Shown piece after piece: positions 1,133 to 5,250 of a stretch of DNA of 5,250 nt. Made by a program: the position numbers and the translations under genes. The first letter of the stretch is position 1. Each line of letters starts with the position of its first letter. The DNA comes from Thermoplasmata archaeon (GTDB taxonomy: Archaea > Thermoplasmatota > Thermoplasmata > GCA-020350865): assembly GCA_020351895.1 (NCBI GenBank), contig CP070672.1, forward strand, positions 654,698-659,947. Reading direction: 5' to 3'. A model generated the notes under the pieces. That model had not been told where the DNA came from. It saw only the letters and a list, made by a program, of their open reading frames with translations, and searched no databases.

Positions 1133-2257
1133 ATGACTAGGGTTTTCATAGACGGAGCCGGAATGACGAGATTCGGAAAAAGAAATGAATCCCTACCTGA
1201 GCTAGTTTATGAGGCTGTATCAAAGGCAAAGGAAGATTCTGAGATCGAAGAATTCGATGCAGTCTATGTAGGTTCCATGAATCCAGAGGAGTTCACAGGT
1301 GACGGAAATATTTCCACGGTTATAGCGGATCATCTGGGCATAAGAAAGCCTTCCCTTCGCATTGAAACAGCCTCTTCAACTGGATCTTCTGTTTTTCATG
1401 CCGCATATTTGGCTGTGGTTTCGGGGCATTTCGAGAGTATACTTGTTGTGGGAGGTGAAAAAATGACCCACCTACCAACCACCGAAACAACAGGGATTCT
1501 GGCCAAGGTGATATCTCCCTTAGAAAAACAGTACGGTGCCACAATGCCGGCTCTGGGTGCACTGGTTACTCGAAGATACATGCACGATTTCGGACTTAAT
1601 AGGGAGACCCTGGGACTTGTGGCTGTAAAGAATCACCACAACGGTTCCCTCAATCCAAATGCCCATTTTCAAAAGGAAGTTTCATTAGAAAAAGTGAATG
1701 AAAGCAGGATGATTTCGGATCCCTTGAGGCTCTTTGACATAGCTCCCATATCGGATGGTGCATGTGCCTTGATTCTATCCTCCAAAAGAGGTGAGGGGAA
1801 GGTCGCAGGAATCGGCCATGCAACAGATACATTTGCACTCCAACACAGGGATTCACTGACAGGGTTCAAATCGACCCAAATTGCAGCAAAGAAAGCCTAT
1901 GATATGGCCAAGGTTGGCCCAACGGAAATTGATGTTGCAGAGGTTCACGACGCTTTTACTTCCTTGGAAATAATAGATAGCGAGGATTTAGGATTTTTTA
2001 AAACAGGAGAAGGAGGCAACGCTCTAAAAGCAGGAAAGACCCTGTTGAATGGGGATCTTCCTCTAAACACGTCTGGAGGTCATAAGGCCAGGGGTCATCC
2101 CATTGGAGCCTCCGGATTGGCCCAGATATGTGAGGTTTATTGGCAGCTTACTGGTAAGGCCGAAAAAAGACAGGTGGATGGGGCAAAGGTCGGCCTTGCC
2201 CAGAACATAGGAGGATTTGCAAACAACAATCTTGTTACGATATTGGAGGTGTACTAA
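1133..2257 (+). CDS. Thiolase-fold protein A (archaeal acetyl-CoA acetyltransferase/SCP2-type family), nucleophilic Cys replaced by Ser
   Basis: This 374-residue protein has the usual length and fold signature of archaeal SCP2-type thiolases, which condense or cleave acyl-CoAs together with a DUF35 partner. Family landmarks are V-G-S-M-N-P (46-51), G-E-K-M-T (108-112), R-R-Y-M-H-D-F-G (147-154), S-D-G-A-C (207-211), H-D-A-F (272-275) and G-H-P-I-G-A-S-G (321-328). The nucleophile motif, normally V-E-N-A-C-A-S-G, reads I-E-T-A-S-S-T-G (77-84), with Ser81 (codon TCT, 1373-1375) in place of Cys. The C-terminal motif, commonly H-N-x-G-G in this family, reads Q-N-I-G-G (357-361). The protein has only two cysteines (211 and 333), neither at the active-site position. 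It is first in an operon with the DUF35 gene and paralogue B. The start at 1133 lacks a Shine-Dalgarno site; a nearby ATG at 1125 is out of frame. A classical thiolase reaction is unlikely; an aldolase-like or non-catalytic role is inferred. Confidence 0.9.
   Translation: MTRVFIDGAGMTRFGKRNESLPELVYEAVSKAKEDSEIEEFDAVYVGSMNPEEFTGDGNISTVIADHLGIRKPSLRIETASSTGSSVFHAAYLAVVSGHFESILVVGGEKMTHLPTTETTGILAKVISPLEKQYGATMPALGALVTRRYMHDFGLNRETLGLVAVKNHHNGSLNPNAHFQKEVSLEKVNESRMISDPLRLFDIAPISDGACALILSSKRGEGKVAGIGHATDTFALQHRDSLTGFKSTQIAAKKAYDMAKVGPTEIDVAEVHDAFTSLEIIDSEDLGFFKTGEGGNALKAGKTLLNGDLPLNTSGGHKARGHPIGASGLAQICEVYWQLTGKAEKRQVDGAKVGLAQNIGGFANNNLVTILEVY
2245..2251 (+). promoter_or_regulatory. Shine-Dalgarno site of the DUF35 gene
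   Basis: GGAGGTG lies 5 nt before the ATG at 2257, inside the last codons of thiolase A. It fixes the DUF35 start and indicates translation from a polycistronic mRNA. Confidence 0.8.
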
Positions 2258-2556
2258 TGATCAAAGGATCAAAATGTGAATGCGGAAAAAACGTTGTTCC
2301 ACAAAGAATGTTATGTCCTGTATGCGGAGGCAAAATGACAGATGTGGAGTTTGGGAATAAGGGGACTGTTTTGACGCACACCACTTTGTTTGCTCCACCT
2401 ATGGGATTTGAGGAACCAATTAGATTTGCACTCGTGGATCTTGAAGGCAAAGCGCAACTGATGTGCACGATAAAAGGTGAAGAAGAAATGATAATCGGGG
2501 ATGAGGTTATGGTTAACAAAGAAGAGAATCTATATTTTTGTGAGCCTTTAAAATAA
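2257..2556 (+). CDS. DUF35 zinc-ribbon/OB-fold acyl-CoA-binding protein
   Basis: This 99-residue protein has the two-part DUF35 build: an N-terminal rubredoxin-like zinc ribbon and a C-terminal OB fold. The ribbon has Cys7, Cys9, Cys20 and Cys23 (C-x-C-x10-C-x2-C); the first pair is spaced by one residue, where C-x2-C is more usual. The OB part begins near G-T-V-L-T-H-T (about 35-41) and includes P-I-R-F-A-L-V-D-L-E-G (54-64) and I-I-G-D-E-V (79-84). In the archaeal thiolase / HMG-CoA synthase complex, the DUF35 protein bridges the enzymes and helps shape the CoA channel; in the bacterial pairs BbsA-BbsB and ChsH2-Ltp2 a DUF35 unit binds a thiolase-fold partner. Its ATG overlaps the stop of thiolase A by one base (TAATG), and thiolase B starts 15 nt downstream, so it probably serves one or both of them. 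No HMG-CoA synthase gene is adjacent. Confidence 0.9.
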   Translation: MIKGSKCECGKNVVPQRMLCPVCGGKMTDVEFGNKGTVLTHTTLFAPPMGFEEPIRFALVDLEGKAQLMCTIKGEEEMIIGDEVMVNKEENLYFCEPLK

Positions 2557-2561
2557 TGAAA

Positions 2562-2566
2562 GGGAG
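2562..2566 (+). promoter_or_regulatory. Shine-Dalgarno site of thiolase B
   Basis: GGGAG within AAAGGGAGAAATC sits 5 nt before the ATG at 2572 in the 15-nt gap after the DUF35 stop. It supports the chosen start and co-translation with the upstream genes. Confidence 0.7.
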
Positions 2567-2571
2567 AAATC

Positions 2572-3705
2572 ATGGCTGTTTATATTGAAAGTGTTGGGAT
2601 GACAAAATTCGGGAGTCGAAAGGAAGGTTTATCTGAGCTTTTTTTGGAAGCGGCAATCAGAGCTATCTCCCTAATACCTGATAATAAGAGAGATTTTGAT
2701 GCCCTTTTTGTGGGAGCAATGAACCCTGCTGAGATTTCCGGAGAGGACAATATCGGGGCCATGATGGCGGATTACCTCGGCCTTTTACCAATTCCTGCAT
2801 TCAGGGTGGAGAACGCCCCTGCATCTGGCTCCGCTGCCCTTCATCAGGCATATTTTGCTGTGACTTCCGGAATATACGAGAAGGTGCTGGTCTTGGCTGG
2901 GGAGAAGATGACAGATAAAAATTCAAAGGAGCTTGCTGGTATCTTTGCAAAGCTTGCTCCCGAATATGAGAGGAAGTATGGGATTACTGTACCTGCCCTA
3001 ACAGCCATGTTGACAAGAAGGTACATGCACGATTTCGGATTAACCAGAGAGGATCTTGCTTTGATTCCCGTAAAAAGCCACGAAATCGCGAAAAAGAATC
3101 CCAATGCTCATTTTCATAAGGAGATTTCAGTTGATGATGTGCTCTCAAGTCCTGTTATTTCCGATCCCTTGAGACTTTATGATTGTGCTCCTATCTCAGA
3201 CGGTGCCTGTGCTGCTGTTTTAACATCCAATCAGGGAGAAGTTGAAATCGTTGGCTTGGGCCACGGGGCAGACACACTCTATTACCAACATAGGGATGTG
3301 TTTTCCTCTTTTCCCGCAACAACACAGGCTGCAAGTGCGGCATATTCCATGGCAGGTATTGAACCAAAAGAAATTGATGTTTTAGAGACCCATGACGCTT
3401 TTTCGATATTGGAGCTGGTCAATTGCGAGGATCTGGGACTGTTTGAGAGAGGAAGATGTATTAATGCCATAAAAGAAGGAATCACGAAATTGGGGGGTGA
3501 TTTACCTGTTAATCCCTCAGGTGGTCTTAAGGCCAAGGGCCATCCTGTCGGAGCAACCGGCCTTGCCCAGGTTTGCGAGCTGTTTTGGCAGTTAACAGAC
3601 GATGCAGGATCACGGAAGGTGAACTCCCCAGAAATTGGACTTACTCATAATATAGGTGGTTTTGGAAACAACGCGGCAGTGACGATTTTAAAAAAGGCCG
3701 ATTGA
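2572..3705 (+). CDS. Thiolase-fold protein B (paralogue of A), nucleophilic Cys replaced by Pro
   Basis: This 377-residue thiolase-fold protein is colinear with protein A and clearly paralogous; by eye roughly half the residues match. Shared landmarks are V-G-A-M-N-P (47-52), G-E-K-M-T (110-114), R-R-Y-M-H-D-F-G (149-156), N-P-N-A-H-F-H-K-E (176-184), S-D-G-A-C (209-213), H-D-A-F (274-277) and G-H-P-V-G-A-T-G (323-330). The nucleophile motif reads V-E-N-A-P-A-S-G (79-86): otherwise exactly the archaeal consensus, but with Pro83 (codon CCT, 2818-2820) replacing Cys. Unlike A, it keeps the C-terminal H-N-I-G-G (359-363). The His and oxyanion-type motifs therefore survive while the acyl-enzyme nucleophile is gone. 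It is last in the operon, and its TGA directly abuts the stop codon of the convergent transporter gene. A Claisen thiolase reaction is unlikely; a retro-aldolase, decarboxylating or CoA-binding structural role is inferred, possibly as a hetero-oligomer with A. Confidence 0.9.
   Translation: MAVYIESVGMTKFGSRKEGLSELFLEAAIRAISLIPDNKRDFDALFVGAMNPAEISGEDNIGAMMADYLGLLPIPAFRVENAPASGSAALHQAYFAVTSGIYEKVLVLAGEKMTDKNSKELAGIFAKLAPEYERKYGITVPALTAMLTRRYMHDFGLTREDLALIPVKSHEIAKKNPNAHFHKEISVDDVLSSPVISDPLRLYDCAPISDGACAAVLTSNQGEVEIVGLGHGADTLYYQHRDVFSSFPATTQAASAAYSMAGIEPKEIDVLETHDAFSILELVNCEDLGLFERGRCINAIKEGITKLGGDLPVNPSGGLKAKGHPVGATGLAQVCELFWQLTDDAGSRKVNSPEIGLTHNIGGFGNNAAVTILKKAD
3690..3695 (-). terminator. Possible oligo(T) terminator of the transporter gene, inside the 3' end of thiolase B
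   Basis: On the minus strand a run of six T follows the transporter stop codon by about 10 nt and lies within the last codons of thiolase B. Archaeal RNA polymerase can terminate at short T runs without a hairpin. The run encodes Lys residues on the other strand, so it may be coincidental. Confidence 0.3.
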
Positions 3706-4290
3706 TTAAAACAGCGAGGCCTCAAGTATGAAAAGGATCCCAATCACAATGAACAATATACCGGAGCCCAGTTCTATCCATCTGGTGGATACCTTTTCTG
3801 ACAATTTCTTTCCAAGAACGACACCTATGCCGACGATGAGTGCAAAAGCCAAAATCGCCCCTATAAAGACCAGTATAGGGGATTCATACTGGGCAGTCAA
3901 TGCAATCACCATGAACTGGGTCTTGTCCCCGAACTCGGCAATGGAGATCAACATGAATGTTGTGGAAAACACGCTTTTATTCTTCGCTTCTTTTACTTCA
4001 TCTTCCTCCTCTTCCTCAGATTTAGCCTCCCATAATGTCCATATACCGAATATTATGAAAATCGCGCCCGAGAGGATTTTCACATAGGTTACATCGATGA
4101 CACTGAACAGTACGGTTCCTGCTAAAACTCCTAAAACCGTGACCATGCTCATTCCCAAAAATACCCCAAAAAATACAGGAACATGCGGATATTTCGAGGC
4201 AAAGGATATTGTCACCAACTGGGTCTTGTCACCAAGTTCCGCCAAGAAAATTGCAATGAATGTGACAACCAATGGAATGTACCATGTCAT
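3706..4290 (-). CDS. GDT1/UPF0016 (TMEM165-like) membrane cation transporter
   Basis: This 194-residue protein belongs to the GDT1/UPF0016 family, whose characterised members move Mn2+ and/or Ca2+ across membranes (yeast Gdt1, human TMEM165, bacterial Mn exporters). The two inverted halves each carry the signature E-x-G-D-K-T: E-L-G-D-K-T at 18-23 and E-F-G-D-K-T at 119-124. Hydrophobic segments near 4-30, 38-63, 69-88, 108-131, 137-160 and 170-191 fit the six-helix topology. The halves are joined by a strongly acidic loop (about 89-104), with the run S-E-E-E-E-E-D-E at 91-98. Length is normal for a prokaryotic two-repeat member. The Met start is followed directly by the first helix, and no Shine-Dalgarno site precedes it. 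It is convergent with thiolase B and separated from the upstream zinc-ribbon gene by a putative terminator, so it is probably transcribed alone. Metal choice (Mn2+ or Ca2+) and direction cannot be read from the sequence; export of excess Mn2+ is the likeliest role. Confidence 0.93.
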   Translation of the reverse strand: MTWYIPLVVTFIAIFLAELGDKTQLVTISFASKYPHVPVFFGVFLGMSMVTVLGVLAGTVLFSVIDVTYVKILSGAIFIIFGIWTLWEAKSEEEEEDEVKEAKNKSVFSTTFMLISIAEFGDKTQFMVIALTAQYESPILVFIGAILAFALIVGIGVVLGKKLSEKVSTRWIELGSGILFIVIGILFILEASLF

Positions 4291-4310
4291 GTTTTCAGAG
4301 GGGGAAACGT

Positions 4311-4337
4311 GATAGGAATTAAAACCTTTTTATGTGG
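4311..4337 (-). promoter_or_regulatory. Putative archaeal promoter of the GDT1-family gene
   Basis: Read on the minus strand, the stretch contains ACATAAAAAGG followed by TTTTAATT, upstream of the ATG ending at 4290. The first would put a start site about 15 nt before the gene and the second almost at the ATG. No Shine-Dalgarno is present in the intervening CCCCCTCTGAAAAC, which fits a short-leader transcript. The call rests on A/T-rich TATA-like sequence and spacing only. Confidence 0.35.
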
Positions 4338-4390
4338 ACATCATCCAGGTATTCATAAAAATCAAAGGCACGAAAGCTCATGCTACTTAC

Positions 4391-4408
4391 AAAAAAAAAT
4401 GAAAAAAA
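4391..4408 (-). terminator. Oligo(T) terminator after the zinc-ribbon gene
   Basis: On the minus strand, 10 nt past the stop codon of the zinc-ribbon gene, there are seven T, then CA, then nine T, with no obvious hairpin before them. This is a typical archaeal T-tract terminator. It would end the zinc-ribbon transcript before the GDT1 promoter. Confidence 0.7.
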
Positions 4409-4418
4409 GAGGGTCAGA

Positions 4419-5250
4419 TTACTCCTCTTCTTCAGGCGGTCTTTTAACTACTTTCTTTGGTACGACTGTGGGTCTTCCTTCTTCCGGCGGTCTCACAACC
4501 TTCTTTGGAACCACAGTGGGAGGCCCTCTTACTACCTTCTTAGGTACAACCTCTGGCGGTCTTGCAACCTTCTTAGGCACAACAGTGGGCGGGGCAGCTG
4601 CTGGAGCTTCAGCCCTTGTTACGGCCTTTGGAGGCACCTCAACAGGAGGTGCAGCAGGTGGAAGCTCGTACTCTTCTTCTTCCTCTTCCTCGAATATACT
4701 GCCGCATTTGAAGCATATGGCCGCGCTTTCTGGATTTACGGTCTTGCACTGTGGACAGGATTTTGTCCTGCCTTTTCTCAGTTCCTCTTCCCTTGAAAGC
4801 CATTCTTCGAATCCCACGTACTTTGGACTGGCCTTCCACCAATCCATGAACTCCTCATCGGTCATGCCTGCTCCGCGCTCGTCCTTGGCCTCGGTTCTGA
4901 ACTGATCCACATACTCCATGTACTGGCTCTTCATCCTCTCTACGTAGTCCTTCTTCTCCTTCTCGATCCCAGCAAAAACGGCTCCGCACTCTGGACAGGA
5001 CTTGGAGGTCACAGGAATCCAGGCACCGCACTCACTGCACTTTGCTGTGTCTGCCTCGAATACGGCACCGCACTTGGGACACTTCTTCTCACCCTCTGGT
5101 ATGAAGGCACCGCACTCACCGCACTCGACAAGTCTGCCGAGGCCGTATCTGCCAAGAAGTACTCCCACATGGACTACAAAGAGGAACCCGATTCCGATTA
5201 TTATCAGTATCAACTGTAAATTATCTTCAAGGAACGTCTTATCCTCTCCC
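4419..5250 (-). CDS. Membrane-anchored triple zinc-ribbon protein with Pro/Lys/Val repeat tail, 5'-partial
   Basis: The function is not recognised. The frame is open to the right edge; the first possible start inside the window is a TTG at 5213, but in-frame codons continue upstream (G-E-D-K-T-F-L-E-D-N-L-Q), so the real start is probably outside. Numbering from the TTG: one membrane helix (about 1-21) followed by G-R-Y-G-L-G-R, which by the positive-inside rule puts the C-terminal part in the cytoplasm; zinc ribbon 1 (Cys31, 34, 45, 48); zinc ribbon 2 (Cys59, 62, 73, 76); a charged, probably helical linker with W-rich F-M-D-W-W-K (122-127), about 83-150; zinc ribbon 3 (Cys153, 156, 167, 170); an acidic run of seven Glu (175-181); then an Ala/Pro stretch and four V-V-P-K-K-V-[VA] repeats, ending E-E-E-E. 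The unseen N-terminal part may be extracytoplasmic. An adaptor role at the membrane, binding protein or nucleic acid, is a guess only. Confidence 0.8.
   Translation of the reverse strand, partial: GEDKTFLEDNLQLILIIIGIGFLFVVHVGVLLGRYGLGRLVECGECGAFIPEGEKKCPKCGAVFEADTAKCSECGAWIPVTSKSCPECGAVFAGIEKEKKDYVERMKSQYMEYVDQFRTEAKDERGAGMTDEEFMDWWKASPKYVGFEEWLSREEELRKGRTKSCPQCKTVNPESAAICFKCGSIFEEEEEEEYELPPAAPPVEVPPKAVTRAEAPAAAPPTVVPKKVARPPEVVPKKVVRGPPTVVPKKVVRPPEEGRPTVVPKKVVKRPPEEEE
4422..4586 (-). repeat. Tandem protein repeat V-V-P-K-K-V-[VA] in the zinc-ribbon protein tail
   Basis: Four imperfect units encode residues 210-264 (numbered from the TTG at 5213). The heptads start at residues 211, 222, 234 and 250 and are separated by R-P-P-E, R-G-P-P-T and R-P-P-E-E-G-R-P-T linkers. 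The unit spacing therefore grows: 11, 12, then 16 residues. The DNA copies differ at many third codon positions, which suggests selection for the peptide and not a very recent DNA slippage event. Confidence 0.85.

Follow-up and report, generated by a model that had tools for sequence, protein, structure and literature searches.

According to the general thiolase mechanism, thiolases need a nucleophilic Cys. In the decarboxylating KSQ/KSS ketosynthases, it is the His pair that carries out decarboxylation. A study of such enzymes reports that ketosynthases in which Cys is replaced by Ser or Gln keep this reaction (PMC12843615). In the PhlABC Friedel-Crafts acylase, a DUF35 protein (PhlB) bridges two kinds of thiolase-fold homodimer, one of which lacks key residues; it is PhlA that lacks them, and it is thought to serve the assembly of the complex, and in PhlC the backbone NH of a Cys residue helps to build the oxyanion hole of the acyl-enzyme (PMC6392133). 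For the steroid aldolases Ltp2 and Sal, the catalytic motif is YDHF or YDCY (PMC12329534). Here we compare these systems with a locus in which two thiolase-fold genes flank a DUF35 gene.

Organization of the A-DUF35-B locus

The window, that is, the whole 5.25-kb stretch of DNA that was analysed, carries the two thiolase-fold genes, referred to as A and B. An earlier sequence-only reading had proposed the order A - DUF35 - B with a 1-nt overlap and a 15-nt spacing, and the ORF coordinates and strand agree with it:

1133..2257, + strand: A, Cys-less thiolase-fold protein of the Ser type, 374 aa (ORF and domain scan)
1373..1375, + strand: TCT codon of Ser81 of A, thiolase nucleophile position (alignments)
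1946..1948, + strand: His272 of A, in HDAF (His in 199/199 proteins listed)
2096..2098, + strand: His322 of A, in GHP (His in 199/199 proteins listed)
2245..2251, + strand: GGAGGTG, Shine-Dalgarno-like, 5' of the DUF35 ATG (sequence)
2257..2556, + strand: DUF35 (OB_ChsH2_C) protein, 99 aa, its start overlapping the stop of A by 1 nt
2275..2325, + strand: four-Cys stretch of the DUF35 protein, C7, C9, C20 and C23 (sequence; aligned with 6ESQ chain E)
2562..2566, + strand: GGGAG, Shine-Dalgarno-like, 5' of the B ATG (sequence)
2572..3705, + strand: B, Cys-less thiolase-fold protein of the Pro type, 377 aa (ORF and domain scan)
2818..2820, + strand: CCT codon of Pro83 of B, thiolase nucleophile position (alignments)
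3391..3393, + strand: His274 of B, in HDAF (alignments)
3541..3543, + strand: His324 of B, in GHP (alignments)

The gene assignments made in that reading also stood: A and B are paralogues sharing 53% identity, Pfam thiolase domains and, in predicted models, the thiolase fold, and the middle gene matches OB_ChsH2_C at 34.1 bits (cut-off 27.1). The nearest solved relative of the DUF35 protein is the DUF35 chain of 6ESQ, and its four-Cys stretch is likely a zinc ribbon, which would bind metal. For every NCBIfam model shown, A and B score under the cut-off. No HMG-CoA synthase gene is present among the six window ORFs that were scanned, and a PADLOC scan of the two proteins encoded downstream gave no match.

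Linkage to DUF35 is frequent among the relatives, as had been supposed. In the 58 rows without Cys (the two of the window included) the DUF35 gene near the thiolase is downstream in 38, fused in 4 and upstream in 1, and it is near the thiolase in 31 of the 38 rows with Cys. The triplet, proposed as a unit, fared differently: the close relative G001 retains A-DUF35 and has no B, and in a second genome, G036, A-DUF35 was found and a B orthologue was not. A-DUF35 is the usual unit and B an optional third gene. The conservation of the triplet beyond the window is read from same-sized contigs of the A and B relatives listed; on this basis, a further six A/B pairs seem to lie together on their contigs and to co-vary. 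A search of 400 class genomes, taken out of a larger group, gave no B orthologue, both matches at E <= 1e-100 being to the copy of A in G001 and in G036; an A-like match occurred in 3 of 300 class genomes, an order-level scan of three genomes matched G001 alone, through its A copy, and a scan of viral contigs gave one distant match. The search with the DUF35 protein listed five proteins, one being that of the window; two others lie on contigs of the same sizes (36138 and 4960) as those of A relatives, and no such size occurs among the listed B relatives. As a check it had been suggested to look in the same genome for a separate Cys-bearing thiolase with HMG-CoA synthase and DUF35; in the related G001 the HMG-CoA synthase operon is present, but its thiolase, too, lacks Cys and has Gly instead, and two other thiolase-DUF35 pairs of this genome carry Cys.

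A Cys-less branch of the thiolase family

The nucleophile Cys is indeed absent from both paralogues, which have Ser81 (A) and Pro83 (B). None of the 199 proteins listed (the best 120 rows per search, 5884 and 7968 proteins having reached the threshold) has Cys in this column, the residues being S in 111, P in 79, T in 5 and M in 4, with A and B counted, which makes chance or sequencing error an unlikely explanation. Both active-site His residues are kept in all 199, so that these proteins have the His of GHP expected of a thiolase and not its nucleophilic Cys.

The sequence-only reading held that the two paralogues had lost Cys independently. This is ruled out by trees of 141 and 64 rows, in which the Cys-less state is common to one branch holding both A and B, the Ser/Pro split having come later. 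In the larger tree the Cys-less clade (92 rows, including A and B) has a support of 99; in the smaller one a 33-row group is supported at 91/99 and the Cys-less split at 93/95, and, since its root is open, loss and gain of Cys are not told apart. The second Cys, that of HDCF, is also missing from the 92-row clade (HDAF 79, HDMF 10, HDMA 2, HEAF 1) and HDCF is present in 36 of the 38 Cys-bearing rows. On these sequence comparisons, the Cys-less branch is older than the A/B split, and A and B, which share with it the lack of Cys, both His residues, Ala or Met replacing the Cys of HDCF and membership of one clade, are part of an old and widespread Cys-less thiolase branch, in archaea and bacteria. 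ST0096 of Sulfolobus tokodaii is assigned to this branch by motif alone, outside the trees. The possibility that B is a recent tandem copy of A is also ruled out by their 53% identity and separate clades; A clusters with the Ser/Thr/Met types and B stands apart.

Between the A clade (44 rows) and the B clade (25 rows), 89 columns are shared at a conservation of at least 95%, and in 10 further columns the two clades are conserved yet different. Four of these differences fall in the nucleophile turn (S74/A76, T79/N81, S81/P83, S82/A84) and two in the GHP loop (R320/K322, S327/T329), which argues for two specialised active sites rather than for decay. We found no study of the Cys-less branch in the open-licence PMC literature, and we know of no activity for any of the family members found here.

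Gene neighbourhoods and candidate reactions

Of 30 places found, the regions around 10 were examined, the nucleophile letter being read by eye. P0040 is a Pro-type protein with 63% identity to A; in the three genomes with a thiolase matching it at 88-100% identity, the pair of thiolase and DUF35 genes (L127-L129) lies next to genes for biotin carboxylase, biotin carrier, methylmalonyl-CoA epimerase and mutase and for an mmdA-like carboxyltransferase that scored below cut-off. Thorarchaeota-type relatives (L009, L010, L012, L013, L029) lie downstream of PYC_OADA and biotin-carrier genes, two Lokiarchaeota (L041, L052) have a mutase gene 3' of DUF35, two haloarchaea (L027, L037) have a carboxyltransferase upstream, and L005 has an epimerase-like match only. 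These are the 13 loci counted; L011, with a biotin-carrier ORF alone at the contig start, was left out. Carboxylase/methylmalonyl neighbours are not enriched, being found within 8 kb at 13 of 54 Cys-less loci vs 8 of 39 Cys loci, where the rows are not independent, several coming from one lineage, and the matches fall in few lineages. Both sets leave out the two rows of the window, the 3 rows with Gly or Glu and 8 from a divergent YDPF-type group, and 14 loci in each are under 12 kb long. FdrA/AllG genes are near 8 of the 54 Cys-less loci. Neither in the window nor in G001 or G036 did the neighbourhood of A yield carboxylase/methylmalonyl genes; G001 has an epimerase and a mutase far from A, and in G036 neither was found.

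The non-thiolase acyl-CoA chemistry put forward by the sequence-only reading is still the natural reading of a lost Cys with both His residues kept, and the Cys-less branch probably converts coenzyme A esters in a reaction other than that of thiolases; the complex, the enolate chemistry and the substrate set out below are what we infer. Our preferred but tentative proposal, which we hold to be less likely than not, is that A and B are active enzymes working without a nucleophile. The His pair (His272/His322 in A, His274/His324 in B) would stabilise a CoA-thioester enolate, and most likely a malonyl-type CoA ester, for instance methylmalonyl-CoA, would be decarboxylated; DUF35 would bridge a dimer of A and a dimer of B. 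The model would be the ketosynthases with Ser or Gln for Cys, which still decarboxylate although their condensing activity is largely or wholly lost, and the carboxylase, epimerase and mutase neighbours of the relatives hint at such a substrate. Against decarboxylation we count the missing enrichment of such neighbours, their absence beside A, the loci near FdrA/AllG genes and the published rates, the related Cys-less TbSLP decarboxylating malonyl-CoA at only 0.005 per second and CtSal not doing so at all (PMC12329534). A broader form, in which the branch would comprise widespread (methyl)malonyl-CoA decarboxylases of this kind, with Ser-type and Pro-type dimers paired via DUF35 as two active sites on one CoA-binding hub, seems to us doubtful.

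The absence of the nucleophile from both proteins would also fit a non-catalytic scaffold that binds CoA esters and organises or regulates a partner enzyme, with PhlA as a precedent (PMC6392133), and the lack of B in G001 agrees with it; pure scaffolding, however, requires neither the invariant His pair of the 199 proteins listed nor six of the 10 fixed differences at the active site, and we regard it as unlikely. An aldolase is less likely again: A and/or B would cleave or form beta-hydroxyacyl-CoA by a (retro-)aldol reaction, like the DUF35-bound Ltp2 and Sal, with His in place of the catalytic Tyr. Membership of the steroid-type aldolases themselves is ruled out, the YDHF/YDCY motif being absent and A and B having HDAF, with His first in 199 of 199 proteins listed. 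Lower still we place an acyltransferase with Ser81 of A as nucleophile and B as an inert structural partner. Ser is fixed across the 44-row A clade and, by alignment, is also found in ST0096 (4YZO), and the Pro of B cannot be acylated; yet relatives of A with Thr or Met there still keep both His residues, and a Ser nucleophile is therefore not essential to the family, and B retains both as well. That ordinary thiolase activity is somehow rescued, for example by direct thiolysis without an acyl-enzyme, is highly improbable: although the named relatives listed are mostly acetyl-CoA acetyltransferases or C-acetyltransferases, Cys is absent from all 199 proteins listed, the NCBIfam scores of A and B speak against it, and an HMG-CoA synthase match lies within 8 kb, as far as the contigs extend, of 0 of 54 Cys-less loci vs 24 of 39 Cys loci.

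Among the proteins that bear the name acetyl-CoA acetyltransferase, many may belong to this branch and, if so, could not be classical thiolases. With its fixed His pair, the branch offers a defined family for assay in archaea and bacteria, and if malonyl-type CoA decarboxylation were true, annotations of archaeal propionate metabolism would change.

Comparison with described thiolase-fold systems

The locus resembles the archaeal thiolase/HMG-CoA synthase/DUF35 complex in having a DUF35 gene adjoining a thiolase gene, and differs from it in having two thiolase-like chains, both without the nucleophile Cys, instead of thiolase and synthase. It also differs from the benzoylsuccinyl-CoA thiolase BbsAB, A and B scoring 170.5 and 179.7 against a BbsB cut-off of 750. 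ST0096 (38-40% identity, structural alignments), for which the open-licence PMC literature gave one passing mention in one paper, has HDMA where A and B have HDAF. The KSQ/KSS ketosynthases, whose substrates are the carrier-bound chains of polyketide synthases, are no close relatives of A and B. The superfamily logic is common to them, Cys being replaced and decarboxylation kept (PMC12843615). The steroid aldolases Ltp2-ChsH2 and Sal-Shy combine a thiolase fold without the thiolase nucleophile with a bound DUF35 protein (PMC12329534). In PhlABC, PhlC keeps Cys88 and its partner PhlA resembles HMG-CoA synthase; B, by contrast, is a paralogue of A within the thiolase family and both are Cys-less, so that the locus has neither such a partner nor a Cys-bearing PhlC; moreover, Pro has no backbone NH, which bars B from the PhlC-type oxyanion-hole route as known. 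A complex of A, B and DUF35 would have a solved precedent in PhlABC, where two thiolase-fold dimers are bridged by DUF35 (PMC6392133).

Gene layout and the A-DUF35 core

The genes under study, with their neighbors in the window, are organized as follows:

upstream of A: flavoprotein (FAD_binding_2)
1133-2257, + strand: A, Cys-less thiolase-fold protein, 374 aa
2257-2556, + strand: DUF35 protein, 99 aa
2572-3705, + strand: B, Cys-less paralogue of A, 377 aa
downstream of B, - strand: GDT1 transporter and zinc-ribbon protein

The ATG of the DUF35 gene shares one base with the stop codon of A, and 15 bases lie between the DUF35 gene and B; the sequences GGAGGTG and GGGAG, preceding the DUF35 and B starts, respectively, make a translated operon plausible. 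The window belongs to a contig of 4,229,406 bases, and its nearest named relatives are Thermoplasmata archaea.

The sequence-only reading called for a survey of how widely the A-DUF35-B triplet is conserved, and the evidence does not support the triplet as the unit. Seven A/B pairs (window included), coming from 25 B-clade members among the matches listed, agree in the length of the longest contig (4229406, 2495319, 77342, 13876, 5078, 4589, and 3072 bases) and apparently share contigs, the shortest having just 849 bases beyond A and B. The distances among the seven A proteins follow those among the seven B proteins (r 0.75, a value reached in 10 of 5040 permutations). The A-DUF35-B order may occur on the contigs of the other pairs. 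However, the closely related genome G001 keeps A-DUF35 (A being 75-76% identical) and, judged by eye, the same downstream genes, with no B accompanying them; a second genome, G036, has A-DUF35 with no B orthologue found, and none was found among the 400 class genomes searched. The pair A-DUF35 forms the core, to which B is added as an optional third gene. The GDT1 and zinc-ribbon genes that come after A-DUF35 in the window (3706-5250) have, by eye, counterparts at L001:11457-20525 in the related genome, where the zinc-ribbon protein measures 2788 aa and no B intervenes.

A single Cys-less branch

The nucleophile position is occupied by Ser in A (residue 81) and by Pro in B (residue 83). Among the 199 listed proteins (best 120 of 5884 and best 120 of 7968 matches of the A and B searches), this column contains S (111), P (79), T (5), or M (4) and never Cys; the His residues of HDAF and GHP are each present in 199/199. 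Once Cys-bearing relatives were added (141 rows), HDCF was found in 36 of the 38 Cys rows versus HDAF (79), HDMF (10), HDMA (2), or HEAF (1) in the 92-row Cys-less clade, where the GHP His (92/92) and the third active-site His (A His168; 88/92) are retained. Hence, two cysteines are missing together while the His pair stays, the exceptions being L032 and the Pyrococcus structure 7YVY, which combine Cys with HDAF.

In the 141-row tree, all 92 Cys-less rows with the HDAF-type motif make up one side of a branch (support 99). A second tree, built under a mixture model from an alignment stripped of two columns (the nucleophile and HDxF position 3), split 42 Cys-less from 18 Cys rows (93/95), with two mevalonate-branch Gly rows grouping with the latter, and placed A and B inside one 33-row, all-Cys-less group (91/99). 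Since both trees assign A and B to one Cys-less branch, the earlier suggestion that they lost Cys independently is not borne out; Ser versus Pro is the sole later difference at the nucleophile position. The DUF35-linked thiolase-fold variant including A and B is real, conserved, and uncharacterised; the single Cys-less branch is the more general point, the A/B pairing being a local elaboration.

Cys was lost separately in the HMG-CoA-synthase-linked (mevalonate) branch, where thiolases encoded immediately behind HMG-CoA synthase bear Gly or Glu at the nucleophile position (L092:7390-8568, in G001; L073:9992-11170; L076:8669-9835). It had also been proposed to look for a Cys-containing thiolase with HMG-CoA synthase and DUF35; in G001, the operon exists (synthase, 580.9 bits vs. 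244, then thiolase, then DUF35), but its thiolase carries Gly at the nucleophile position, with HDNY and GQP. Two further thiolase-DUF35 pairs of this genome do possess Cys and adjoin, by eye, hydratase- and reductase-like ORFs. Epimerase and mutase genes are present in G001, distant from A.

Neighborhoods of the relatives

Neighbors were counted within 8 kb of 54 Cys-less and 39 Cys loci, 14 in each set being shorter than 12 kb. HMG-CoA synthase matched at 24/39 Cys loci, at 3/3 Gly/Glu loci of its own branch, and at 0/54 Cys-less loci. Carboxylase/epimerase/mutase genes occur near 13/54 Cys-less versus 8/39 Cys loci, so this theme is not specific to the former, though the association is tight in some relatives. 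At L127-L129 (Pro type, three related genomes), the thiolase-DUF35 genes are flanked on one side by a carboxyltransferase/biotin carboxylase/biotin carrier operon and on the other by methylmalonyl-CoA epimerase and mutase. When L127 and L128 were scored against profiles, cut-offs were passed by the epimerase (153.9 bits vs. 114.95), the mutase domain (842.4 vs. 303.8), and biotin carboxylase (635.2 vs. 597), whereas the mmdA-like carboxyltransferase (855.9 vs. 998.8) and the biotin carrier fall under their cut-offs. In Thorarchaeota-type relatives, the thiolase genes come after pyruvate-carboxylase-B-like and biotin-carrier genes.

FdrA/AllG genes lie near 8/54 Cys-less and 0/39 Cys loci; at these eight bacterial loci (L043, L060, L070, L071, L077, L078, L080, and L003), the neighbors are FdrA-like genes and genes for AllG (oxamate carbamoyltransferase), joined in some cases by those for a cyclase and a molybdenum hydroxylase. 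Archaea also show another kind of pairing, namely tandem pairs of another thiolase-like type adjoining DUF35 genes (L095:6323-8738, L038:451-2784, L040:2424-4776, and L050:7477-9836), one member having YDPF with Gly at the nucleophile position and the partner being divergent. Lastly, a Cys-less thiolase is fused to a DUF35 domain in L004, L005, L006, L014, and several of the proteins P0104-P0120; such natural fusions suggest that the two touch directly.

Active sites and possible chemistry

We consider as established the gene layout, the predicted fold, the shared absence of Cys, the retained His, and the common DUF35 linkage. When 44 A-clade rows were compared with 25 B-clade rows, 89 columns proved identical between the clades at a conservation of at least 95%, and 10 were conserved with a different residue in each; the nucleophile turn holds four of these 10 and the GHP loop two. 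In PhlC, as described in PMC6392133, the backbone NH at the nucleophile helps to form the acyl-enzyme oxyanion hole. The Pro of B lacks this NH, which, together with the A/B active-site differences, argues for two working but different, specialised sites.

It is unlikely that A and B constitute a non-catalytic scaffold, a possibility that the retained His residues and the divergence of the two sites speak against. That A and/or B might be an aldolase appears slightly less probable, and slightly less again a Ser-acyltransferase in which A would use Ser81 and B would be an inert partner. The reading we favor is a His-stabilised enolate chemistry without acyl-enzyme, through which malonyl-type CoA esters might be decarboxylated, by analogy with the ketosynthases carrying Ser or Gln for Cys (PMC12843615). 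A simple form of this proposal is made less likely by the weak malonyl-CoA decarboxylation of TbSLP (0.005 per second) and by the absence of this activity in CtSal (PMC12329534). As for the complex, dimers of A and dimers of B might be bridged by DUF35, after the PhlABC arrangement of PMC6392133.
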